A stretch of 47,843 nt of DNA, taken from positions 1 through 47,843 of the IMG/VR virus record IMGVR_UViG_3300022200_000003. The stretch is one strand, 5' to 3'. This stretch comes from a virus. This document shows, in pieces, positions 2,149 to 41,727 of the stretch. How positions within the stretch are numbered: position 1 is the first letter of the stretch; the number at the start of each line of letters is the position of its first letter. Below the pieces are notes generated by a model, which saw only the letters and a program-made list of their open reading frames with translations, did no database searches and had not been told where the DNA came from. The position numbers were made by a program, and so were the translations under genes.

Positions 2149-3447
2149 ATGTCTAATTTATCAGTGGTGAAACTTCACCCAACACTTACGAACTTTGTTC
2201 GTCCTAGCCCACATAGTACGTTTAGCCCGTCTGCTATCGACTCTTGGCTTGCATGCGCTTATCGCAAAAACGCCATTGTTGGGATTCCAGAAACGAGTTC
2301 ATGGTACGCAGAGGAGGGCACACTTGCTCACTCTATTTGTGAAGCCATGTTTGCTTTGCTCTACTACGACTTCCCCTTCTCTTCTAAGCTCCAGATGGAG
2401 ATGATTGCATGGGACAAACTCAATGGGCACAAGTCCCCTACTTCTCATATGCTTGAGTGCGCTCGGGCCTATGTGGAAGTCATAGTTTATTGGCTCAACA
2501 ATACACACGACCTGGGGAACATCCTTTGGTTTGGGCTTGAGCGAGGAATTCCAATCTTTCCTGAAGAGGGGTGTTTTGGTACTGGTGACTGCATCATAGT
2601 AGGTACTAGCGGATGTGCAGTTATCGACTTTAAATTCGGGAAGGGCCATAAGGTTCAAGCTGATACTCTACAGCTTAAGGCATACGCAGCGGGTATAGCC
2701 CGTCATTTGATTGACATCCCTGCAGATTATAAATTCATTACAGTGATCTTCCAGCCTAGAGTTCAGCCAGGCGCCCTAGAATACACATGGACCCTCCCTG
2801 AGATGAATCAATTTCTAGGTGAGATATGGAAATCAATCCAACAATCGAAGGAAGAGGGGCTATCCCCAGTCGAAGGGCGTCACTGTTACTGGTGTCCTGC
2901 ACGCAAGCCTAAAGATCCTGCACAGATGTGTGGAGCTATTAAAGAAAAACCCATGAAGCTAGTAGCGGAAGATTTTGCAGGCTTTATGTCTGCTATGCAA
3001 TCTCCAGTAGACTATGTGGGAGCTCCAAACCGAAAAAGGGATGAAGCGATCATGAAACTCATTGCCCTCAAGCCCATGATTGATGACGTGGTAAAGAATG
3101 GCCTGGAAGAATTCATGATGAGACTTGACGATGGGGAAGTGATCCCAGGTGCAGTTATTACTACGACCTTTGGGAATCGCTCATACAATGGGACAGAAGC
3201 AGAGATCTTTGAACTCCTGCGGACTAAGTTTCCTATGGTGACAGAGCCTTCCACTGTCGTTCCGTCAAAACCAAAACTCAAATCAATCACAGAGATTGAG
3301 AGGGAATATAAAATAGATCTAACATCAATCTGCATCAAGAAGGGCACTAAGACAGTGGACATCCTTGATGATAAAATGCGAACCGTCTTAGGTGAGATGG
3401 CGAACTACGGAAAGATGCTTAACAACGGCCAAGGCCAAGGGGAATAG
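2149..3447 (+). CDS. RecB/Cas4-like PD-(D/E)XK nuclease (DUF2800 type)
   Basis: I take ATG 2149 as start because it follows TTGAGGGAATACATT; the longer frame from 2107 overlaps the helicase and has no good ribosome site. The 432-aa product shows the RecB-family pattern: a histidine in EEGTLAHSICE, an Asp in FGTGDCIIV, the DxK pair in AVIDFKFGKG and QLKAYAAG. A Cys in WLACAYRK plus C-terminal CYWC and a later Cys suggest a Cas4/AddB-type iron-sulphur cluster. Such proteins sit directly upstream of a DUF2815 SSB in many phages, as here. Likely an exonuclease in phage recombination or repair. Confidence 0.88.
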   Translation: MSNLSVVKLHPTLTNFVRPSPHSTFSPSAIDSWLACAYRKNAIVGIPETSSWYAEEGTLAHSICEAMFALLYYDFPFSSKLQMEMIAWDKLNGHKSPTSHMLECARAYVEVIVYWLNNTHDLGNILWFGLERGIPIFPEEGCFGTGDCIIVGTSGCAVIDFKFGKGHKVQADTLQLKAYAAGIARHLIDIPADYKFITVIFQPRVQPGALEYTWTLPEMNQFLGEIWKSIQQSKEEGLSPVEGRHCYWCPARKPKDPAQMCGAIKEKPMKLVAEDFAGFMSAMQSPVDYVGAPNRKRDEAIMKLIALKPMIDDVVKNGLEEFMMRLDDGEVIPGAVITTTFGNRSYNGTEAEIFELLRTKFPMVTEPSTVVPSKPKLKSITEIEREYKIDLTSICIKKGTKTVDILDDKMRTVLGEMANYGKMLNNGQGQGE

Positions 3448-16974: not shown

Positions 16975-19900
16975 CTACTCTTGGCGCTTTACTTTTGCCA
17001 GCTTTCTTCTTCGAACTCCCGCTTCTCTTCGCTTTTCTCTGGCAGGCTTGTTTCTGTTTGAAAGATCAATGGCCGCACCAAGAGCTTCAAAGCCTACAAA
17101 TCCTGTGAGGAGTGTTGCGGTAGAGATAAGTGCTGTGACTTCAGTGTCACTTAAAGGAACGCCTTGACGCTTATGGTTAGCGCCTGCAATGGCAGAAGGA
17201 ACCTTGCTCAAGACTCCAAAAGCAGCTGAAGGATTGGCACTTCCAAAGATCATTGCCGAAGAAACTAGTCCCCCCATGATAGGCATTGGACCTTCAATAG
17301 GTGCCATTATGGCCCTAAGTGCAAGGGTTCTTTGTGAGCGCTTTCTCTGCTTCTCTTCGTCTGCCTCGTCATCCCCTTCCGCGCGTACTGCCTCCGATAT
17401 GATAGAGTCGAAGATCATTGGAATGTAGAGGGCTATGACTCCTAAGAGGGCAATCACTGCAGCTTTCTGGGCAGCTGGTGTGTCTCTCTGCATCTCGACT
17501 GAGAAGAGGTTTCTGATTGCAAGTTTATATGAGAGTGCCATAGTGAACACTTTGTATATGTCCTCCCCGCGCTGGAAGTTTGACATTCCAGAAACTCCCG
17601 TAGCTACCTGAGTCTTATCCACTAGGAGATCTGCCTGAAGAGCTGCTTGCTTCTCACTGAGATTTGAATCTAGGGCCTGGTTGTATGCGGCCATCCACAC
17701 GTTAACATCTGTATAGTTCTGGAACATTTGCATGGCCCATGAGGATATGTCGCGTGAGACTATTTCTGATCCATTGATCCAATCAAAACGAGTATCAAGG
17801 AATGAAGTGGACCTTCCAAGCTGCTGCATAGATCCGTTAAGTCTGTTCTTCATTAGAGCTGATTTACTTGTAATGAACTCCCGAGTCTGCACTGGGGAGA
17901 AACTTTGCTGAGCAGAGGCCAGGAGCATTCGCCCAGGATTCACTTCTTTCATTGCAGGGAAATGCCCCAAGAGCTGCTTGAATGCCACCATTGAGTTGAA
18001 TGAATAGATCGCAATGTTCGCATTCTGCCTGAACTTGCGGGCTATGCTGTGCTGGTCAAGGCTTCCAGGTTTAGTGAAGATCTGCCCACTGGTGTCTTCA
18101 AACCATGGAAGGATGACGTTCTTTAATGCCCCTGGTCTTTTAGCTTCAAGAGCTGCATGGACTTCCTGACTAGAAAGAACTTTGCCTAGGTCCATCATTG
18201 GGTTTCTAAGGTAGATAATATTCATTACTGCAGAGAGGTATTGGGGCACTTTTGACATATCTAACTCAGAGTCATAGTACGTTTGCGTCCGCTCGTTCGT
18301 CATACCTGTGTTCTGCTTAGGGTACATCTCTTCGACTCTGTAGTTTGAATTGGCATCTGGGTCTACCAGAGACTCAAATTTTGCAATGGTGTCCAGGACT
18401 CGTGACTTACTTGATGGGAAGTACCCGCCCTTAAGAACGCCCAAAGAAGTGGTGAGGGGTCTTGCCTCAATGTTCCCAATCTCAAAGCTGCTAGACTTTC
18501 TATGCTCACGCTTAAGCTCTGGGTGAAGTTTAGCAAACTCATCCCATATGGTTTGGTACATCTCGAAGCGCTCAGCTGTGAGTACGCCTTCGGAGATAAG
18601 GCGCTCAATAAATTCCATCGTCTTAGTCATGTCTAGCTGAAGATCTTTAGGAGACATAAAACTCAAGGGGCCACTGCCATTGAAGCCACCAAGTAGAATT
18701 TTCTTAGCACCAGACTCCGAACCTAAGTTCATCATAAAGGCGTCAAGTTGGTTCATGCTCTGGAACGTCACCTTTAGCTCAGGTGAGTGGATGGGCTTCA
18801 TGTTCTTATCAAGACTCACAAATGGGAGCCTTCTCAGGATGGGTGCATATAGAGCCTCCATAGCTGAGTTGTTCTTAACTGCTTTACGGACTGCTTTAAC
18901 GATAACTCTGTCCACTTCATTTTTATGGAGAGTGAGTTTGGCTTCCTGGTCCCGAACACCTGTGAGCATTTTGCCCATGGCAGACTTCACAAAGTCGCCT
19001 GTGTTTTTATAGAAGCCTTCCATGAGAGTGCTCATGTTCACAAGGCTTGCATTCTTCTTACTCTGATATGAGGTCTTAGTGAAGTCTACAACATTGCCCA
19101 CTCTATCAAAGTCTTCAACTACCTGGCCCTTGATTGTGTCAAGCTGTTCGATCTTGTTATCTACTTCAATTTTCTTGGAGATCCTGGCCTCTTTCATTAT
19201 GGCCTTAACTAATTCTCCTAGGGCCGTGTAGCCTCCTACTGTCAGGTTCTCCCCGGCTTTCCCGCCTGCTTGCTGCTGGAAGTCTGTTACGGCATCATTG
19301 ATTCTAGTGATCGAATCCCCTGTCACTCCGCTAATGTCATTGAACATCTCTGCAGTGAGAGGAGGGACGTCACCTTTCATCTTAATGATCTGAACTATCT
19401 GGCGCCCGTATCTCATCATGTCGAAGTCATAAACCTTTAAATGGTCCTTCGATCTTGAATATTTCTTAAGGTTGTTGATGCGGACTTTAGTTTCTGCCAC
19501 ATCATTCTGAGCATCTCTTGCCGCTTTATATGCATAGTAATGGATTGCTTCTTTGAACTTGGAATCAAAGCTGCCCATGAAGTCACCTGTGCGGAAGAGT
19601 CTTGCTGCCTGTCTTCCGTGGCGCTGTGAATCCATAAGGAATTTATTGGCGCTAAATCTATATGCAAGGGAATCCCTAACAAGTTCTTGCCCTCTTGCTG
19701 TGATGTTTTCTTTGCTCCCTTTAGCTATGTATTCTGCAGGATTGATTGCTTTTTCCGCAAGTCCTTTAAGGGTTGGGAGAAATTTTGTGGCCAGGATCTT
19801 AAGCTCATCTTGCATAAGCTTCTCAGCTCCGCGTGAGTTAACTGCATCCACTGCAATCTGGTGAACCTCCTCGTCTGATTTCATTACTGGGATTTCAGTC

Positions 19901-22900
19901 TTGAGAAGCTCATCAAAAGTTTGGTTGATGAAGTCTTGACGCATACCCATTTCCACAAGCTGCTCAAACATCTCTGCAGGATCTGAGATCCTTTTCATTT
20001 GCATGTAGAGGGAAACGTCCATCCCGCCTTTCTTCTTGCCTGTCATAACCGCACGAGGGAGTGTTTTTCTAAGAGCTTCCATGCGCTCCTCAGAGCCCCC
20101 AAGGATTGTTTGAAGAACACTTTCATAGCTCAGGCGTGGGTCCGGCGTGTCGCCTTCAGGGTCGTTTTTATGCTCTCCATACGCAGACTCAAAATCTCTA
20201 AGCGTTTGCATGGAAGGCATTGCATCCACTTCTTCAACTGCCATATCAATAATTCTGTCTTGTTCCTGGAGGATTAGTTTCTCTCGGTCCTTGATGGATT
20301 GAGCAAATGATTTGTGGTAGGCGGATCCAATCGCAAGGGATCTGGCATCTGCAATTCTCTCTCCATATTTCACGCCTTCTGGACCTAGCATTTCAGGGTC
20401 AAACATTGGGACTGGGAACATTGGGATGACTTCTTCCTCAATGCGGTTACTTACTCCAAGGATTGCTGAGAACATTCTCTCAACTTCTGGAGTCATTTTA
20501 AGTGGCGGGTACTGAGGGTATGTCATTTGTCTTATAGCATCTGCGACTTCATTGATCCATTTGCGGAACACTTCCATGAGCGCTCTGATGCGGTTGTCAT
20601 CGAACTTTCCATCAAGGAAATATCGTTCAGTCGTTTGTGCAAAAGATTCATGGACCTGGGCATATCTGTCCCCTCTGAGCGTGAGGAGTTCGTCAATTGT
20701 CTTCATTCCAAAAGAGCGCCCAAGAAGATCCGCTGCAGTTTCCATGGCAGTCTTGTATTCTTTCTGATCTGGAGTGAGCTTGTCTTCTGGAATCACACTT
20801 ACTATCTTCCAGTCTTCGGCCATCTCGTGGAGCCATGAATGCCCAAACTCATGGACTATGGTTTTTGGAGTTGATGTTGGGGCAAAGACAATAGTGTAAA
20901 CTCCGCCTGGCATTTGGTTGGGCTTGAATATCCCATGAGCTCTATTGCTTTCTTTCTTAGTTGTCTTACCGATCTGCAGTCTTGAAGCGACTTGCTCCAT
21001 AGTTTGCCCTGTGACCTTAGCACGCATGCGCATATGTCGAAGCTGCGCATCAGCAAAGACTTCCACCATTTCTGGGGCAAAGCTTTTGTCATTCGCTTGC
21101 TTAAGCCTTGATACTAGGGACTTAAATACTTTACGCTCTTCTGCGTCACGATATTTTGAGGTGAGTTCTACAGGCCTGGAGATGATGTTGTCTCCAGCTT
21201 CAGTAGGCTCTATGATCTCGATGCTGTCATCTGGAGTGGAGTCCACATCTGTCTCACTGTCATTTGTCCTATCAAAGAGGTCATATGGATTTTTCTCTAA
21301 GGCCTCTACTGTTTCCTGGGCTTCGACTGCATTAAACTCATTTCCATTGAAGCGGGCAATTGTTTCAAGCATTGGGTCGCTCTCAGTCGCTATGATCCAA
21401 TCTGCCATTGGCACCTGGAATGAAGTGTCTGAGACTCGGTTGCTCATGTAGTCTTTGAGGGCCTGTGGCGTGAAGGAGTTCATTGCCTCTAGTGAGTCAA
21501 CGCCTTTCTTCATATGGTAGGCTTCCCACTCGGAAGGTGAGATGGAAACGTGGCTATTGGATGCTCTGTCCTGTGCCTGAATTTCTTTATTAATTCCTGG
21601 CTTCAAGTCAACATCCATAGGAGCGTGAACACTCTCAACTTCTGCACCTGGTGCCATTGATTCATTGATAAGATCTTTAATCTGGTCAGGCGAAGTTTGC
21701 CCAGTGCTGTCACTCATTACTGAGGCACGTAGGTTTGAGACTGCTGCCGCTGCCTGAGTCGCTGCATTTGCAGTCTTAATCTTTGCACCAGTCGCAAGAG
21801 CTGCAAGCTTCTCCGACTTATAAATTGTTCTCGCGCCATATCCTACTGAGCTGAATGCTGCTCCAGGGAGAATAGATGCCACCATTTCAAGTTTGGCTTC
21901 CTTTATGTTCTCTGCCTTCTTCTCTGGGGTCAGTCTGCCACCATATAGGTCGGCGGCATTTGAAGCTGCAAGTTGAGACCCACCTTCTCCAGCTGCATTG
22001 AGCGTGCCTTCTGCAATCGCTCCAGTTGAGAATACGGCCATCTTGCCCATTACTGTCTTGGCCACTGCTTTCTTCACTGTGTATTTGAGGAGTAAACCTC
22101 CAGTTAATCCAATGACTGCATCAGAGGCACCCATGATCCCGCCATATAAAGAAGCTTCTTTTCTCATAAGAGATAGCTTCTGTGGGTCTTGCCCAGCTTT
22201 CACATAGTCAATTTTTCCTGTCTTCGGATCTGCATAATCACTTAAAAGGTCCTGCATTTTTTCACCAAACGAGAGAAGTCCTCCCGCTGCGAAGGCACCT
22301 AAAGTTCCTGTGATTCCCGCAGTCACCCCTATAGGACCAGTGAAAGGGACAGAGGCAAAGCCTGCAATCCCTACTACTGAAGAGGCCATAGGAAGCAAGG
22401 AAGATCCAATGCCTTCCATGGCAAACGTGCCTGTGGCGCCTGGATTTTTTGCCATCTCTGCCAGGATGTTTAAAACTCCATCAGCTTTAGTAATAGCTTC
22501 AAGTCCTGCGCTTTCTGAGTATGTCTGAGTCTGGGTATCAAGGTGGTTCAGTTGAACTATGCCTTCTTCCCACGTCATAGTCCCAAGCGCCATTTGACCT
22601 TGAACCCATGCTTTAGTTATGAATATTTTTTGGTTTGTGTAGACTTTCTCCGCATCACTCATCTTGTCTGGATTGAATGCCTGCGCAGCGTTGTCAATCT
22701 TTCTGGTATAGTCACCTGTGTTCTTCATGAGCTCATAGTTCTCAGGAGACTTAGCTGCCCACCTGGCCACTGGCTGGTTGTACTTAGCGACTAAATTCCT
22801 CTTCGACTCTACTACTGCATCATTGAAGCCCATGTTGCTGAGCTTAGCTTCTGAAGCTTCCTGTGACATGCCAGTAAGGATGGAGAGTTTCTTTGCTTCC

Positions 22901-23565
22901 TGGGCCATCTTCACGCGTTCTGGGGTGGCCGTAGCTGCCATGATTGCCATCTGAGCGCTGAGACCTTTAGGTGTTATCTCTTCAGCTTCCCCTTCTTTGG
23001 CCTGGGCAATTGCTGACGAGAAGTCATCTTCTTCAGTAGGTCCTTCTTTGGCCTGGTTGATTGCTGACATCATGTCGTCGTCTACAGGGATCTCTTCTGC
23101 CATCAAAGGTGCAGAAGCTGGGCCCATTGACCCCCACATGTTTGATCTGTCCTGAGAACGAGTAACTAGTCCGCCCATCTTGACAGACTCACCATTGGTG
23201 TTGTCACCCTTATTGTATTCTAGGAGCTTCGCTTGGATCTCTGAATCTGTAGCGCCGCTCTTAATGTAATTGTAAATTTTCTGGCGAGACTCACTCTTCA
23301 TATTGTAGTCGATGTCTAAAAGAACATCCTGCTGAGCTTGAGTAAATTCTCTTCCAAAATCCATAGAAGAAAGGGAGGCTTCTGAGTTTGCAACATATGC
23401 ACGCATGTCTTTATCAGCTTGGTCCCTCGTCACAACTCTTTCTGGGTTGTCAGTCTTTACCCCATAGCCCGCTGACATCTGAGTGCCATCTGGATATGCG
23501 TTTTCTCTGAAGCCTTCTTTACCTTTGATTCTATCGTAAAAACCGTTTGATGCTTTAATTGCCAC
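16975..23565 (-). CDS. Giant internal virion/ejection protein with lysozyme and zinc-protease motifs
   Basis: GTG 23565 follows TTTGAGGGGATTTT. At 2,196 aa this is the largest protein. Residues 1-145 form a T4-type (GH24-like) lysozyme domain: IKGKEGF with candidate catalytic E17, AGYGVKT, FTQAQQDVLLD and GLVTRSQDR. Hydrophobic Gly/Ala-rich segments lie near residues 385-530. An HEFGH zinc-protease motif is at H905-H909, followed by a long helical region and a predicted membrane segment near residue 2034 (ALLGVIALYIPMIFD). It fills the T7 gp16 role: local wall digestion and a DNA-ejection conduit. Both enzymatic motifs look intact; activity is inferred. Confidence 0.88.
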   Translation of the reverse strand: MAIKASNGFYDRIKGKEGFRENAYPDGTQMSAGYGVKTDNPERVVTRDQADKDMRAYVANSEASLSSMDFGREFTQAQQDVLLDIDYNMKSESRQKIYNYIKSGATDSEIQAKLLEYNKGDNTNGESVKMGGLVTRSQDRSNMWGSMGPASAPLMAEEIPVDDDMMSAINQAKEGPTEEDDFSSAIAQAKEGEAEEITPKGLSAQMAIMAATATPERVKMAQEAKKLSILTGMSQEASEAKLSNMGFNDAVVESKRNLVAKYNQPVARWAAKSPENYELMKNTGDYTRKIDNAAQAFNPDKMSDAEKVYTNQKIFITKAWVQGQMALGTMTWEEGIVQLNHLDTQTQTYSESAGLEAITKADGVLNILAEMAKNPGATGTFAMEGIGSSLLPMASSVVGIAGFASVPFTGPIGVTAGITGTLGAFAAGGLLSFGEKMQDLLSDYADPKTGKIDYVKAGQDPQKLSLMRKEASLYGGIMGASDAVIGLTGGLLLKYTVKKAVAKTVMGKMAVFSTGAIAEGTLNAAGEGGSQLAASNAADLYGGRLTPEKKAENIKEAKLEMVASILPGAAFSSVGYGARTIYKSEKLAALATGAKIKTANAATQAAAAVSNLRASVMSDSTGQTSPDQIKDLINESMAPGAEVESVHAPMDVDLKPGINKEIQAQDRASNSHVSISPSEWEAYHMKKGVDSLEAMNSFTPQALKDYMSNRVSDTSFQVPMADWIIATESDPMLETIARFNGNEFNAVEAQETVEALEKNPYDLFDRTNDSETDVDSTPDDSIEIIEPTEAGDNIISRPVELTSKYRDAEERKVFKSLVSRLKQANDKSFAPEMVEVFADAQLRHMRMRAKVTGQTMEQVASRLQIGKTTKKESNRAHGIFKPNQMPGGVYTIVFAPTSTPKTIVHEFGHSWLHEMAEDWKIVSVIPEDKLTPDQKEYKTAMETAADLLGRSFGMKTIDELLTLRGDRYAQVHESFAQTTERYFLDGKFDDNRIRALMEVFRKWINEVADAIRQMTYPQYPPLKMTPEVERMFSAILGVSNRIEEEVIPMFPVPMFDPEMLGPEGVKYGERIADARSLAIGSAYHKSFAQSIKDREKLILQEQDRIIDMAVEEVDAMPSMQTLRDFESAYGEHKNDPEGDTPDPRLSYESVLQTILGGSEERMEALRKTLPRAVMTGKKKGGMDVSLYMQMKRISDPAEMFEQLVEMGMRQDFINQTFDELLKTEIPVMKSDEEVHQIAVDAVNSRGAEKLMQDELKILATKFLPTLKGLAEKAINPAEYIAKGSKENITARGQELVRDSLAYRFSANKFLMDSQRHGRQAARLFRTGDFMGSFDSKFKEAIHYYAYKAARDAQNDVAETKVRINNLKKYSRSKDHLKVYDFDMMRYGRQIVQIIKMKGDVPPLTAEMFNDISGVTGDSITRINDAVTDFQQQAGGKAGENLTVGGYTALGELVKAIMKEARISKKIEVDNKIEQLDTIKGQVVEDFDRVGNVVDFTKTSYQSKKNASLVNMSTLMEGFYKNTGDFVKSAMGKMLTGVRDQEAKLTLHKNEVDRVIVKAVRKAVKNNSAMEALYAPILRRLPFVSLDKNMKPIHSPELKVTFQSMNQLDAFMMNLGSESGAKKILLGGFNGSGPLSFMSPKDLQLDMTKTMEFIERLISEGVLTAERFEMYQTIWDEFAKLHPELKREHRKSSSFEIGNIEARPLTTSLGVLKGGYFPSSKSRVLDTIAKFESLVDPDANSNYRVEEMYPKQNTGMTNERTQTYYDSELDMSKVPQYLSAVMNIIYLRNPMMDLGKVLSSQEVHAALEAKRPGALKNVILPWFEDTSGQIFTKPGSLDQHSIARKFRQNANIAIYSFNSMVAFKQLLGHFPAMKEVNPGRMLLASAQQSFSPVQTREFITSKSALMKNRLNGSMQQLGRSTSFLDTRFDWINGSEIVSRDISSWAMQMFQNYTDVNVWMAAYNQALDSNLSEKQAALQADLLVDKTQVATGVSGMSNFQRGEDIYKVFTMALSYKLAIRNLFSVEMQRDTPAAQKAAVIALLGVIALYIPMIFDSIISEAVRAEGDDEADEEKQRKRSQRTLALRAIMAPIEGPMPIMGGLVSSAMIFGSANPSAAFGVLSKVPSAIAGANHKRQGVPLSDTEVTALISTATLLTGFVGFEALGAAIDLSNRNKPAREKRREAGVRRRKLAKVKRQE

Positions 23566-34986: not shown

Positions 34987-36585
34987 CTATGAATTATAAT
35001 TAGGCGCTGGTCTATGGTATTTGTCAATCTGTGATTCATCATGCACAAAATTTCCTTGCATAGACCTATGGTACGCATTCGCAAAGTCTCTCAATTCTTG
35101 GTCTGTGCGTGGTGTGTCACGAGGTCCGTCATCAATTCCTGTCTGAGCAAAGAAGCTGGATTGCTCCACATCCGCAAAGGTTTGGGCCAGGGAATCCGAT
35201 CTATCTGGAGACCTACCAAGTCTTTTCTTGATGTCTTCTTTAGGTTCAATCCGAGTCACGCCCGCATGGAAAATTACTTTAATCGTTGTAAGTTCTTTGG
35301 CAAGCTCGGGATCTTTTGGAAGTCCCCCACCTTTTCGCACCCAGTCCCGCAAGCGCATATACATTTCTGTGCGCTTGTTAAAATATCTAGTCTTATCTTG
35401 AGCATTGGCATTGTAGACCACTGGGGTCACTTCCATATTGGGGAAGAGCTGAAGACTATCAATCACTGAAGATCCGTACCCTCCAGTATTATCCACAAAA
35501 ATTCTTTCAATTCTTTCTTCGCCTTGTTTCATGGCGACAATACCCGCAAGCTGAGGGCCCGTATGAGTAGAGTCAAATAGCTCAAGTGGGTATGCCTTAA
35601 GCCCTTTACGTTTAGCAAATGAACTTCTATCTACCCCGCCTCGTGCCACGTCAATACCTAGGCGAGTCTGAGAACTTATGACAGTCCGCTCTTCGATCAC
35701 TCGGTCCATTGCCTCTTTCACTTCTGAGTCTGAGAGCAAAGTGTCCATAGCAGTCGGAGGATACTCTCCAAAAACGTTTACTAGAACCCATGGATCATGT
35801 CGCCCATAAGTTCTAATCTGAGACTGTGCCCATTTAACATCCACTCGTGGTGAACGTTTCGGATCATCAGGATCCCCAGTCACTCGGACTATGCCCCATT
35901 CCTGTTCAGTCAGGCCTTTACTCGCTTCATATATCATGCCACTTGGGATCTCGGGATTTCCCGCAGCTAAGATTCGTGCTTTCTTTTGTGGCCCATCCCC
36001 TGTAGAGAGCGCCGCATCTGCAGTCGCAAGCACTGGATCTGGAATCATCCCTGCCTCATCCAGGAGGAATGCCACGTTTGGTGCGTGAAGCCCTGCCAGT
36101 GCTGAGGTCATGGACTTACTATCCGCCTGCTTAGGGAATGAACGTGCATCAATGAAGGAGTAGAGCTCATGCCCAATAAGCTTGAAGCGCTCCCCGCCTG
36201 CTTCGACTGATCTCTTGAGGAGGTCTGATCGCGCGTGAAGGGATGCAAGCTCTGCCCATAAGTTAGACATCAAATGGTCTTTCGTAATGGCAAGCGCAGC
36301 TATCTTAGGTTGGTGGTTCGTTATGAAAAAGTGCCATCCGAGTACGGCCAGGGTAAATGTTTTACCAGGACCTTTGTTGGCAATCATGGCAATTCGCTGG
36401 AAAAGCATGTAGAGGTCAAAAACTTCTTCCTGCCATATGTCCAGCTTGGCATCAAACACGTCCGCCACAAAGATCTTAGGACGCTCCCGCCATAACTTCA
36501 TCATATGTGCAGACTGCAGCTGAGCTGGTTGTTTCCACGCACGCTGAACGTTTACAGGATGAAACGCAGGCTTACTCGGCTCCAT
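34987..36585 (-). CDS. Terminase large subunit (packaging ATPase and nuclease)
   Basis: The 532-aa protein has Walker A NKGPGKT (K75, T76), Walker B AFLLDEAG (D176, E177) and a RNase H-like nuclease domain with RLGIDVARGG (D312), RIFVDNTGG (D365) and a late acidic site near SPDRSDSLAQT. It cuts concatemers and pumps DNA through the portal. ATG 36585 is the only in-frame ATG but has no ribosome site (CTCCTCTTATT before it). The frame is open for more than 80 bases upstream and would encode plausible protein (KEIYLPKLELPPLI), so the true start is uncertain. Confidence 0.9.
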   Translation of the reverse strand: MEPSKPAFHPVNVQRAWKQPAQLQSAHMMKLWRERPKIFVADVFDAKLDIWQEEVFDLYMLFQRIAMIANKGPGKTFTLAVLGWHFFITNHQPKIAALAITKDHLMSNLWAELASLHARSDLLKRSVEAGGERFKLIGHELYSFIDARSFPKQADSKSMTSALAGLHAPNVAFLLDEAGMIPDPVLATADAALSTGDGPQKKARILAAGNPEIPSGMIYEASKGLTEQEWGIVRVTGDPDDPKRSPRVDVKWAQSQIRTYGRHDPWVLVNVFGEYPPTAMDTLLSDSEVKEAMDRVIEERTVISSQTRLGIDVARGGVDRSSFAKRKGLKAYPLELFDSTHTGPQLAGIVAMKQGEERIERIFVDNTGGYGSSVIDSLQLFPNMEVTPVVYNANAQDKTRYFNKRTEMYMRLRDWVRKGGGLPKDPELAKELTTIKVIFHAGVTRIEPKEDIKKRLGRSPDRSDSLAQTFADVEQSSFFAQTGIDDGPRDTPRTDQELRDFANAYHRSMQGNFVHDESQIDKYHRPAPNYNS

Positions 36586-36665: not shown

Positions 36666-37250
36666 CTATACAAAGTCTCCCCAGACAGTCGAATGTTCAC
36701 TAGTCGTCGCAGTCACTTCAATATCAGGAAGAGTGTTTGCTTTCTTCCCCTCCCAGTACGCGGCTTCAATCTCTTCGATTGTCAGGTCTTCCTCACCTGT
36801 CGGGAGGTTATAAGACTGCATGATGATGTCTGACAAAGAATGCACTACTGACATATCAATTTTCTCCACAAAGTCTGTTTCTGATTTACCAAGAAGCTCG
36901 GAGCCCTTAAGCCTTGCCGCAATGGGCATGGGCTCAGGAGTTAAAGGTGCATTCGTTATAGGGTCGTACTTCTGTATGTAATGAGGATCCTGATTTCGCA
37001 TCACTGAGGTCCAGAACGCCTGCCGCTCTTTCCGGTCTGCAATCGCATTAGAGGTTTGCTTCTGATACTTATCCCTGTCCGCAATTGCTTCCTGAATTAA
37101 AGGCATCTTTAAAAGCTTCTCACCCTCTGCCTTACAAAACGCATCAGAACCATTGGATCCTGAATACCTCATGGCATCGGCCGCATCTCCGTGATAGCGC
37201 TCAACAAAGAGCCTATGCTTAGTAGAAAGTTTTGAAAGTACGCTGCTCAT
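36666..37250 (-). CDS. Terminase small subunit
   Basis: The 194-aa protein lies directly upstream of the large subunit gene. It has an N-terminal helical DNA-binding region reminiscent of small terminases (LSTKHRLFVERYHGDAADAM, then YSGSNGSDAFCKAEGEKLLK), a middle QAFWTSVMRNQDPH, and an acidic C-terminus (EEDLTIEEIEAAYWEGKK) that could bind the large subunit. It would recognise the packaging start site. The ATG follows ACGAGGATTC. Confidence 0.82.
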   Translation of the reverse strand: MSSVLSKLSTKHRLFVERYHGDAADAMRYSGSNGSDAFCKAEGEKLLKMPLIQEAIADRDKYQKQTSNAIADRKERQAFWTSVMRNQDPHYIQKYDPITNAPLTPEPMPIAARLKGSELLGKSETDFVEKIDMSVVHSLSDIIMQSYNLPTGEEDLTIEEIEAAYWEGKKANTLPDIEVTATTSEHSTVWGDFV

Positions 37251-37383
37251 GAATCCTCGTATCTATAAGTCCATTCCCTTTACAGTTATCACATGTAATG
37301 GGCTCCTCGTCAAAGTCAGAAGTGGCTTCGCACCCTGTGCCCTGACAAATGCTACAAGCTTCGATGTTTGGAAAGTAGGTCAT
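37219..37383 (-). CDS. Zinc-knuckle mini-protein, 54 aa
   Basis: ATG 37383 overlaps the upstream TAA as TAATG, with GGAGGG nearby, and opens a 54-codon frame ending TAA at 37219-37221. The product has two CxxCxGxG-type knuckles like those of the DnaJ zinc domain: CSICQGTGC and CDNCKGNG, joined by an acidic linker. It overlaps the start of the small terminase gene by 32 bases. The four paired cysteines in a small frame make chance unlikely. A role in protein folding, or as a zinc-bound regulator, is only a guess. Confidence 0.72.
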   Translation of the reverse strand: MTYFPNIEACSICQGTGCEATSDFDEEPITCDNCKGNGLIDTRIHEQRTFKTFY

Positions 37384-37586
37384 TAGCTGACCCTCCATCC
37401 CTGCCCATATTTCCCATAGACATATCCGTCAAGCCAGATTGCCACCGCGTCGACTTTACGGATCTTTCTGAGTGCCAGTATTTTCCTGTTTGCGTGCATG
37501 AATTGCTTGAAAATGATTCTTTGCCTTTTTGAAAGGCTTGCGGTGCCTACAATCGTCCGATCCTTGCGCACTAAAACTTTTGCCAT
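37383..37586 (-). CDS. Hypothetical basic protein, first gene of the late arm
   Basis: The 67-aa protein follows GAGGGAGGCAAC and is strongly basic (KDRTIVGTASLSKRQRIIFK, ALRKIRKVDAVAIW). It is the first gene after the divergent hub in the late direction, a typical place for a small DNA-binding regulator. No family recognised. Confidence 0.75.
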   Translation of the reverse strand: MAKVLVRKDRTIVGTASLSKRQRIIFKQFMHANRKILALRKIRKVDAVAIWLDGYVYGKYGQGWRVS

Positions 37587-37625: not shown

Positions 37626-37655
37626 ATCGTATTTGTGTCTGGAAGAAAAAGGCAA
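37626..37655 (-). promoter_or_regulatory. Candidate late promoter
   Basis: On the minus strand TTGCCT (37655-37650) is followed after 18 bases by TACGAT (37631-37626), 40 bases upstream of the first late gene. The match to sigma70 is moderate. It is the best candidate I see for driving the late arm, besides the repeats upstream of it. Confidence 0.35.
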
Positions 37656-37723
37656 GTGAAATTGTTTGAGCTGTTATGACTCTCCGCACTGTAAGTCTTG
37701 GCGGCGCTTAGTTATTAGAATAA

Positions 37724-37830
37724 TTATTTGAATAAGTCGGTCATGGAATTTATTTGAATAAGTCGGTCATGAAAGCGTGGAGGCTTACTGCAATAAGTTA
37801 TTTGAATAAGTCGGTCATGAAAGCGTGGAG
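37724..37830. repeat. Three 22-bp direct repeats upstream of the late arm
   Basis: The 22-mer beginning TTATTTGAATAAGTCGGTCA and ending TG occurs exactly at 37724-37745, 37750-37771 and 37798-37819, with offsets of 26 and 48 bases. Copies two and three share 11 more bases (to 37782 and 37830). The first 12 bases are an inverted repeat (TTATT-TG-AATAA), and a related element TTATTAGAATAA lies at 37712-37723. Such clustered repeats act as replication iterons or as binding sites for a transcription factor; the sequence alone does not decide. Confidence 0.9.
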
Positions 37831-38340
37831 ACTTTCCGGTGGGTGGGTATAGCCCCTGCGCCGCGCGGCCGTGGGGGGTTGACGGGGTGGCCTGCCTGCA
37901 CGCCGTATCGACTCTCCAACTCGATGCATCACATAGTCTATCAGACTAGCAGACTAGGCGCCCAGAATCGCCCTGAGCGTACAGATCGGTGCGCATGCCT
38001 TGAATTTGACGCTCTAGGATCGCTCAGGTGGCGTTTTTGGCATGGGGTCCATGTGTTAGGGTGGGCAGAAAGCGGGCGTCACCTCGTGGCGCTGAGAGCG
38101 TAGCAGCTGGATAGCATGTAGGCGCGCGGAGCGCTTGGAATCCACCTAGCATATACGTGACTCGGAGAGTTATAAGCGCCCTTCTCATAGTCCAAGGCTT
38201 CGACATATTGGCATGTAGTGGACTATGAGCATGCAGGCATGGAGGCGCTCAACACTAAAGCGCGAGGCACTTAGCACAGTAACTAAAAACGTGGCGGCGT
38301 GAAGTCTGGGCGGCGTATGGCATGAAGGGCGCATAGTTAC
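37830..38340. other. GC-rich, hairpin-dense non-coding block
   Basis: This block has no convincing gene. Line 37861-37920 has 44 G/C of 60, against 13 of 60 at 38461-38520. Foldable elements include the palindrome GCCGCGCGGC (37860-37869), TAGTCT/AGACTA (37934-37948), a long arm CGCCCTGAGCG (37969-37979) with CGCTCAGGTGGCG (38021-38033) followed by TTTTT, CATGG/CCATG (38041 region), GCGTCAC/GTGGCGC (38076-38092) and an 11-bp inverted repeat CTCATAGTCCA (38184-38194) with TGGACTATGAG (38219-38229). It could be a large structured RNA, an origin or a packaging site. Confidence 0.6.
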
Positions 38341-38367
38341 ATAAAGAGCGCCAAAACACTATGCTCA

Positions 38368-38410
38368 TAGTACATCACTTTTTGACCATGGGACTATGTA
38401 CTAGTTTTTT
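38368..38410 (+). terminator. Terminator-like hairpin at the end of the GC-rich block
   Basis: TAGTACAT (38368-38375) pairs with ATGTACTA (38396-38403), and GTTTTTT follows (38404-38410). A second hairpin ACTATG-CT-CATAGT overlaps its left side (38358-38371). The orientation would stop plus-strand transcripts coming from the GC-rich block, hinting that the block is transcribed to the right. Confidence 0.5.
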
Positions 38411-38455
38411 CTCGCTTTTTCACCAACGTGTGTATCAAAACCTCACCATATCCCC

Positions 38456-38484
38456 TTGAGGTATTGATATACTACTTTTATACT
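38456..38484 (+). promoter_or_regulatory. Candidate early promoter in the AT-rich tract
   Basis: TTGAGG (38456-38461), 17-base spacer, TATACT (38479-38484). It lies in a stretch with about 22% G+C (38461-38520) that could also serve as a DNA-unwinding element. Reading is toward the early operon. Confidence 0.45.
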
Positions 38485-38757
38485 TATATCTCTATTATAG
38501 TAAGGGTATATATTAAGCTAAAAGCACTCAAAAATCGCAACACTATTCAATACTTACTCTCAGTCTATCATACCGCTATAAAAAAGTGTGGGCCATGCCC
38601 TTTTCTCGACCGACTGCACAACCGTGACACAAGTAGCCTAAACAAAACACCTCCCGAAAACATAGTCCACGTTTTCCATAGTCTAATAGACCACTTGTAA
38701 ATTAGTACACGAGTCTAAGGTAATATTTACACACTACAAATAGGCATAAAAGACCGC

Positions 38758-38786
38758 TTGACATAACATTGGTATGCGCATACTAT
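38758..38786 (+). promoter_or_regulatory. Strong sigma70-type early promoter with overlapping palindrome
   Basis: TTGACA (38758-38763), exactly 17 bases, then TACTAT (38781-38786), 36 bases before the first early ATG at 38823, which is preceded by GAGGGAG. The perfect 12-bp palindrome GTATGCGCATAC (38772-38783) covers the end of the spacer and half of the -10 box, an ideal operator position. The promoter assignment is strong by consensus; the operator is inferred. Confidence 0.8.
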
Positions 38787-38822
38787 CTCTTTGTACCAAA
38801 CAACACTTGAGGGAGTGACAAC

Positions 38823-39269
38823 ATGATCTTAGTAACAATAACAATCAACAACAAAACAAAAACACTAACAGACACCAAAGACATACCACTAGTATGCGCC
38901 CTACTGAATGCCACTGAGCAATTCCAAAAGACAACAATCGAAGAGCTCTCCGACTTTGCAGCGGACCACATGAGCAACGTAAAGGCATTGTTTGGAGGCA
39001 GTCAGACATTCAACGCACGCAAGCGAGAAGATGTCAGCGAATCCCACTTCGAGCGCTTCACAATGGCATACTATGCAGAGCTTGAGGCACGCTTTGCCCT
39101 TGACCATGATGGACACAGATACACCCTGGACGAAACATTCCACAGAACAGTGGCAGCAATATTCAGGCAGTCATTCATAAAAGACACCCAGGCGTTTAAA
39201 GACACATGCAAAGTCCTTAAGATCAAACACACATACAAAGCGATTGAAGCTTTCATCCAAGGCAAATAG
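38823..39269 (+). CDS. First early gene, hypothetical 148 aa
   Basis: The ATG follows TTGAGGGAGTGACAAC and is the first gene after the strong early promoter. The product has a beta-rich start (MILVTITINNKTKTLTDTKD) and a helical rest (FERFTMAYYAELEARFALDH). No family recognised. First-expressed genes of lytic phages often act on host defence or host transcription, but nothing in the sequence shows this directly. Confidence 0.8.
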   Translation: MILVTITINNKTKTLTDTKDIPLVCALLNATEQFQKTTIEELSDFAADHMSNVKALFGGSQTFNARKREDVSESHFERFTMAYYAELEARFALDHDGHRYTLDETFHRTVAAIFRQSFIKDTQAFKDTCKVLKIKHTYKAIEAFIQGK

Positions 39270-40800: not shown

Positions 40801-41173
40801 AACAATCACAACAACCGTCGGGACATGCCTTCTACTGGAACAGCTAGTTGAAAATGAGCTGCGAATGCTTAACAACCGAGTGACAAATCACCGTCTGGAG
40901 GAAAAAGAACGTGCAGAGGTTCAAGCTGAGATTGCCCAACTCAAAGAGCTCATCGCACAGCTAAATGAGCTTAACAATTTAGAGGAGTCTGTTAACACTG
41001 AGGTGACAGAATGCTACACACCAGAAGAGATTGCACACTTCGAGCACTTTGAAGCCTTCTGGGATGCAATAGACGTACAGAACGCCTATGAAGAGGACTG
41101 GGACAAGTGGCAAGGCAAAGGCATTAAAGAGACATACAAAATCGTATTCGACAAACTGAGAGGCAAACAATGA
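40793..41173 (+). CDS. Hypothetical coiled-coil protein, 126 aa
   Basis: ATG 40793 overlaps the previous gene by 8 bases. The first 65 residues form a coiled coil (LLEQLVENELRMLNNRV, KERAEVQAEIAQLKELIAQL); the rest is acidic with aromatic residues (HFEHFEAFWDAIDVQ). No family recognised. The stop overlaps the next ATG (ATGA). Confidence 0.75.
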   Translation: MTRTITTTVGTCLLLEQLVENELRMLNNRVTNHRLEEKERAEVQAEIAQLKELIAQLNELNNLEESVNTEVTECYTPEEIAHFEHFEAFWDAIDVQNAYEEDWDKWQGKGIKETYKIVFDKLRGKQ

Positions 41174-41727
41174 GCACACCAACCTACAAAGGACGCCAAG
41201 ACTTAAAGCTTCCCAGGCCACTCATAGAGCTTTATCTGGAGTATCTCAGAGTACACCAAAACAGCATAGCAGCTTTATGCGCCAAGTACCCCAAGTGCTC
41301 AGAGTTTGCACTTACTAACGCCATGAGCAATGCCCGCATGATCTCAGAGAATTTTATCTTCACGCGCAGGAATTACATAAACTCGTTTGCGGTCCCATAC
41401 CCAAAACAGGCGCTATGGTTCACAGCTGCAGCACAAGGCTTCTCTATTGTAGAACTACAAGAACGCCTCAACCTACCACATTCGAGGGTGCAGCGCCTAA
41501 TACAGGGCCGCAAATGGATCTCGAACAATGAAGCCCAGCTTATATCGCAAACTCTCAACTTTCCTTTGCCTTCGACTGCTGAGATAGTCTTATGGAACGC
41601 TGAAATTCACCAACATAAGGCAGAGATTGCAAACAACTACAAAGAGGGAGCGGCAAAGCGGGAACGCGCCAAGCTACCAAAGCAAGTCACTAAAGAGCTC
41701 ATCACCATTGACATCAAGGGAAGATAA
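41170..41727 (+). CDS. Early helix-turn-helix regulator candidate, 185 aa
   Basis: The protein has a central segment that fits an XRE/sigma-like HTH: FSIVELQERLNLPHSRVQRL followed by a basic IQGRKWISNN and a helix LISQTLNFPLP, at about residues 95-140. The N-terminal part is helical (LIELYLEYLRVHQNSIAALC). It is the best candidate for an early DNA-binding regulator, for example one acting on the palindrome in the early promoter. ATGA overlap at the start. Confidence 0.72.
   Translation: MSTPTYKGRQDLKLPRPLIELYLEYLRVHQNSIAALCAKYPKCSEFALTNAMSNARMISENFIFTRRNYINSFAVPYPKQALWFTAAAQGFSIVELQERLNLPHSRVQRLIQGRKWISNNEAQLISQTLNFPLPSTAEIVLWNAEIHQHKAEIANNYKEGAAKRERAKLPKQVTKELITIDIKGR

Follow-up and report, generated by a model that had tools for sequence, protein, structure and literature searches.

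In phage SPP1, the packaging site (pac) sits at the gene for the small terminase subunit (TerS) and contains direct repeats; TerS binds this repeat-bearing DNA at the gene that encodes it, and the cut made by the large subunit (TerL) falls between the stretches so bound (PMC6316719, PMC4737164). SPP1 pac overlaps both the TerS promoter and the start of the gene (PMC6316719). In the podovirus LUZ24 of Pseudomonas (Bruynoghevirus), the order is leftward TerS, leftward late promoters, genome terminus, rightward early promoters, and rightward early genes, and the annotated 184-bp direct terminal repeat lies inside the gap between the late and early promoters. For its relative PaP3, a 20-mer "cos" (GCCGGCCCCTTTCCGCGTTA) is bound in vitro by PaP3 TerS (PMC7672466), and, in a strain of that species, the genome carries 182-bp terminal repeats and lacks a cos (PMC8540360).

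The LUZ24 gene order recurs in the viral record analyzed here, a stretch of 47,843 bases (the window) from a podovirus with a T7-like portal, in an uncultured phage clade. Structural genes (T7-like portal, major head protein, tail proteins, TerL, and TerS) run leftward from about 37.6 kb, and replication genes (SNF2-like helicase, exonuclease, PolA, and Prim-Pol/VapE) run rightward from 38.8 kb, continuing through the first 10 kb on a circular map. Leftward late and rightward early genes are separated by a 1,236-base gap whose left half is a GC-rich block. At the gap (38000 to 39000), AT skew turns from negative to positive, matching the reversal of transcription direction. Elsewhere in the genome, a 2,196-amino-acid protein on the minus strand (16975 to 23565), probably a large virion protein, matches only phrog_9880, a family of unknown function, and a short open reading frame beside TerS (37219 to 37398) carries paired CxxC motifs (CSICQGTGC and CDNCKGNG) resembling a DnaJ zinc finger. 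The features of the gap and its flanks are as follows:

34987 to 36585, minus strand: TerL (terminase large subunit) gene, 40% identical to Xanthomonas phages by tblastn against annotated phage TerL; used to find relatives
36666 to 37250, minus strand: TerS (terminase small subunit) gene, SPP1/SF6 type, Pfam Terminase_2, phrog_51
37383 to 37586, minus strand: 67-amino-acid open reading frame with ribosome-binding site that heads the leftward late operon
37626 to 37655, minus strand: candidate late promoter TTGCCT-N18-TACGAT, 8/12, by consensus match only
37679 to 37685, minus strand: ACTCTCC site
37721 to 37834, plus strand: three direct-repeat copies (26 to 40 nt) ATTTGAATAAGTCGGTCATGAAAGCGTGGAG, possible TerS-binding repeats
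37830 to 38330: GC-rich noncoding block, 58% G+C
37837 to 37878, plus strand: conserved packaging-like element CGGTGGGTGGGTATAGCCCC-N-GCCGTGGGGGG
37911 to 37917, minus strand: ACTCTCC site, left arm of an inverted pair
38164 to 38170, plus strand: GGAGAGT site, right arm of the inverted pair
38184 to 38229, plus strand: longest perfect local stem, an 11-bp stem-loop CTCATAGTCCA/TGGACTATGAG (arms 38184 to 38194 and 38219 to 38229)
38368 to 38410, plus strand: weak terminator candidate, an 8-bp stem closing a long loop, then T6
38428 to 38475, plus strand: hairpin in the AT-rich half, outside the block
38758 to 38786, plus strand: early promoter, sigma70-like, TTGACA-N17-TACTAT, 10/12, by consensus match only
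38823 to 39269, plus strand: first rightward early gene, no assigned function

A Terminase_2 domain was found in TerS of seven of nine relatives, the TerS family profile matches the SF6 TerS structure 3zqp (E = 1.1e-11), and the best Foldseek match is 3zqq; TerS is of the SPP1/SF6 type. With the pac of SPP1 and SF6 and its G1P-type TerS, the locus shares this type of TerS and direct repeats near the TerS gene. It differs in that the signal here does not overlap the TerS promoter or gene start, the conserved element lying about 0.6 kb upstream.

Relatives were collected as 27 close loci from TerL searches, with further loci from TerS searches, and about 20 relatives encode a TerL 55 to 67% identical to that of the window. 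A DNA similarity search against phage records returned none, and none were obtained by way of the first early gene or by way of TerL in bacterial and archaeal genomes. A noncoding gap occupies the same place in all species with enough sequence, spanning about 0.8 to 1.4 kb and in one case 2.3 kb, and most of these gaps are GC rich beside TerS and AT rich (down to 13% G+C) beside the early genes. The sequence itself has turned over: blastn of the window's gap against the relatives found no similarity, even at 67% TerL identity. In 12 of 14 gaps, direct repeats outscored all of the shuffles (the best in the window's gap scores 34, against a shuffle maximum of 14), as inverted repeats did in about half. 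These repeats are species specific, for example, 44-nt direct repeats in locus L005 and 67-bp inverted arms in L003. The L003 arms lie 260 bp apart in the AT-rich half, and the AT-rich half of the L009/L010 gap holds an imperfect palindrome of about 240 bp, 74% self-complementary (1173 to 1413 of the region upstream of TerL). In L004, an HNH-like open reading frame of the homing endonuclease type, read by eye, lies between TerS and the gap (2704 to 3162).

Short signals persist across this turnover. In a k-mer comparison of the 14 gaps, ACTCTCC/GGAGAGT occurred in 12, against 0.65 expected (P about 6e-12). Wherever a gap holds both arms, ACTCTCC comes before GGAGAGT, and L005 carries two interleaved pairs. 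Sigma70-like promoter sequences at the gap edges are a further signal shared among the relatives. The words AAAGGGGG and GGGTGGGT were also well above expectation, and the G-run words proved to be parts of one element of about 40 bp. Its family consensus is CGGGGTGGGTATAC-N16-GAAAAGGGGG, also written GGGGTGGGTATAC-N16-GAAAAGGGGG and often followed by NNCGGGG, with a spacing of 15 to 18 nt in most species. In the window, the element is upstream of TerS by about 600 bp, beyond another small gene; in others this distance is at least about 140 bp. Copies are degenerate in the window, L003, L021, L022, L025, and L030, and those in L004, L022, and L025 were missed by the automatic scan and recognized by eye.

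A blind scan of IMG/VR viral contigs with the pattern GGTGGGTATAN{12,26}AAAGGGGG returned 15 contigs, mostly TerS-adjacent loci, of which 10 carried the family element and 5 appeared chance-like; among the 10 were three new species, with TerS where expected. Exact-pattern matches number one per contig. A further viral scan, using GGGGTGGGTATACN{14,24}GGGGG, recovered known members together with additional contigs. When the motif was built with the window left out, its best match on either strand of the window was at 37837 (14.4; next, 13.8). Upstream of 33 more distant TerS genes the motif was absent, with a plus-strand maximum of 11.5 versus about 20 in typical members, and a literature search for the string GGGTGGGTATA gave only matches that, judged by title, were chance-like.

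The element motif, trained on the present family only, was also run over the 1.88-kb gap of LUZ24, where its best match, with a modest score of 9.6, falls at the right edge of the terminal repeat. Both edges of that repeat read GGGGAATATCCC, a G-run/AT/C-run sequence. A best match would fall so close to an edge by chance in a few per cent of cases, which makes the agreement suggestive only. TerS and TerL have no detectable homology to those of LUZ24 and PaP3, and LUZ24 is therefore a likeness in layout rather than a member of the family. Its gap differs in that the side toward TerS contains tRNA-like sequences (PaP3 has annotated tRNAs) and that ACTCTCC sites are missing. LUZ24 also has a terminal repeat, whereas the window and several 46- to 48-kb relatives run through the gap with no end repeats detected, as expected of collapsed or concatemeric DNA but no proof of it. 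The CCCCTTTCCGCG within the PaP3 "cos" resembles the complement of the element, CCCCCTTTTCGCG, a resemblance only; it was dropped as evidence because the adjacent GGGTGGGTATA partner is missing and the cos claim is itself disputed.

Many IMG/VR contigs of the family (L002, L012 to L017, L019, L020, L023, and L025 to L028) break off no more than about 1.8 kb upstream of TerL. Physical ends at contigs stopping at the element were considered and rejected: break points vary within one species, which makes repeats or coverage dips the likelier cause, and one break is a collapsed repeat.

On balance, we lean toward reading the region as a cis-acting DNA site for packaging initiation or the genome terminus (pac, cos, or a short terminal repeat) together with a divergent control region. 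This reading is supported by the conserved gap position, the element, the inverted sites, the repeats, the SF6-type TerS, and the LUZ24 layout. The first-pass annotation had named an origin or packaging site as a fallback to a large RNA, and the fallback fits a region that is adjacent to TerS, lies between divergent operons, and keeps short DNA signals conserved across unrelated sequence. The packaging region would sit between a late promoter driving TerS and TerL leftward and an early promoter driving the replication genes rightward. TerS rings could bind the direct repeats at 37721 to 37834 and the G-run element at 37837 to 37878, and TerL, positioned at the repeats or element, would then cut the concatemer and packaging would start, leaving headful, cohesive, or short-repeat ends. 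Initiation of replication, or regulation, may be the role of the inverted ACTCTCC/GGAGAGT sites and the AT-rich hairpin half, and a replication origin is possibly combined with the packaging region.

The alternative that survives best, although we consider it well short of probable, is that the region is a replication origin in its own right: ACTCTCC/GGAGAGT would be initiator-binding sites, the AT-rich half would melt, and the inverted repeats would load the Prim-Pol/VapE helicase-primase, while packaging may start elsewhere. The inverted ACTCTCC sites (12 of 14 gaps), an AT-rich half with a hairpin or long inverted repeats (the L003 arms and the L009 palindrome), and a genome encoding replication genes that include Prim-Pol/VapE and PolA are all consistent with an origin. 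However, the cumulative GC skew curve has its minimum near 44.5 kb and no extreme at the block, each gap holds just 0 to 4 ACTCTCC sites, with none in L004 and L024, and an origin would leave the G-run element beside TerS unexplained.

Packaging and replication signals could also share the region. Slightly more tentatively than the origin alone, we suggest an undescribed two-part packaging or terminus signal, a G-run pair with conserved spacing around GTATAC, joined with an ACTCTCC-iteron origin in one module. Such a module would be 1 kb long and fast evolving and would have been kept across the uncultured podovirus clade while all the intervening sequence turned over. The region is ordinary in kind, and its set of signals appears to be undescribed.

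A divergent promoter region of purely regulatory function, whose sites bind an early/late transcription switch of the phage with no role in packaging, is improbable. It would draw on the early sigma70 promoter at 38758, on an HTH protein encoded nearby (41170 to 41727), and on the late-promoter-like TTGACN-N17/18 sites found upstream of TerS in most relatives (by consensus match only), but the G-run element is separate from and upstream of the candidate late promoter, its exact-pattern matches occur once per contig, and the roughly 1 kb present in every relative is more than such a region would need. The element as the late promoter itself was rejected, since most relatives have separate TTGACN-type promoters closer to TerS; with the candidate late promoter set apart from it and the early promoter at 38758, the element is no obvious promoter.

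The earlier proposal of a large ornate RNA of the GOLLD, ROOL, or HEARO type had started from the composition and stems of the GC-rich block. Its G+C counts were exact (44/60 at 37861 to 37920 and 13/60 at 38461 to 38520), and G+C reaches 58% in the 500 nt from 37830, compared to a mean of 45.8% and a maximum of 57.4% among 947 windows of 500 nt taken every 50 nt across the whole 47.8-kb window. The block also holds up as gene free, the open reading frame at 37825 to 38103 having no counterpart in the relatives' gaps. Multiple stems are present in modest excess, with 14 local perfect stems (6 bp or longer, with loops no larger than 60) compared to 6.0 ± 2.4 in dinucleotide shuffles, none of 100 of which reached this number, and the excess is real given that coding controls average z = −0.3. 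Folding energy, however, is ordinary: the whole block is no better than shuffles (z = −1.3), 120-nt windows from 37827 to 38307 have a mean z of about −0.2, like coding controls, and the sole fold clearly beyond shuffles (z = −3.2) is the hairpin outside the block. The arm reported as 12 bp (37969 to 37979 with 38021 to 38033) pairs as 8 perfect bp, extendable past a 2-nt bulge, and the proposed terminator at 38368 to 38410 does have its stem and T6 but, with a long loop, is not compact and was not called as a terminator.

The block is like GOLLD, ROOL, and HEARO in being phage borne, noncoding, and rich in stems, and differs in having neither a covariance-model match nor a conserved fold; Rfam, at the gathering score and at a relaxed E value, gave no match to those three and nothing credible in the window, the stretch (relaxed), or six relatives. 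A large structured noncoding RNA with a plus-strand transcript is thus very improbable, despite the local stem excess (14 versus 6), the T6-tailed stem, and the fixed 5′-to-3′ order of ACTCTCC and GGAGAGT, by which the arms could pair, because those arms are sequence conserved rather than covarying, the block folds at shuffle level without an Rfam match, its left edge has no called promoter, and the relatives hold no alignable homologue and no systematic stem excess in their GC-rich halves. Any reading of the block as an RNA gene is unlikely, and stem-bearing GC-rich gaps in phages are easily mistaken for ornate RNAs.

With the packaging and terminus reading preferred, a lead resembling a new RNA class becomes a testable DNA signal. 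Control regions in divergent gaps can be compared by short motifs where ordinary alignment fails, and, judged from its sequence and position, the element of about 40 bp would predict the site of terminase action in an uncultured podovirus clade.
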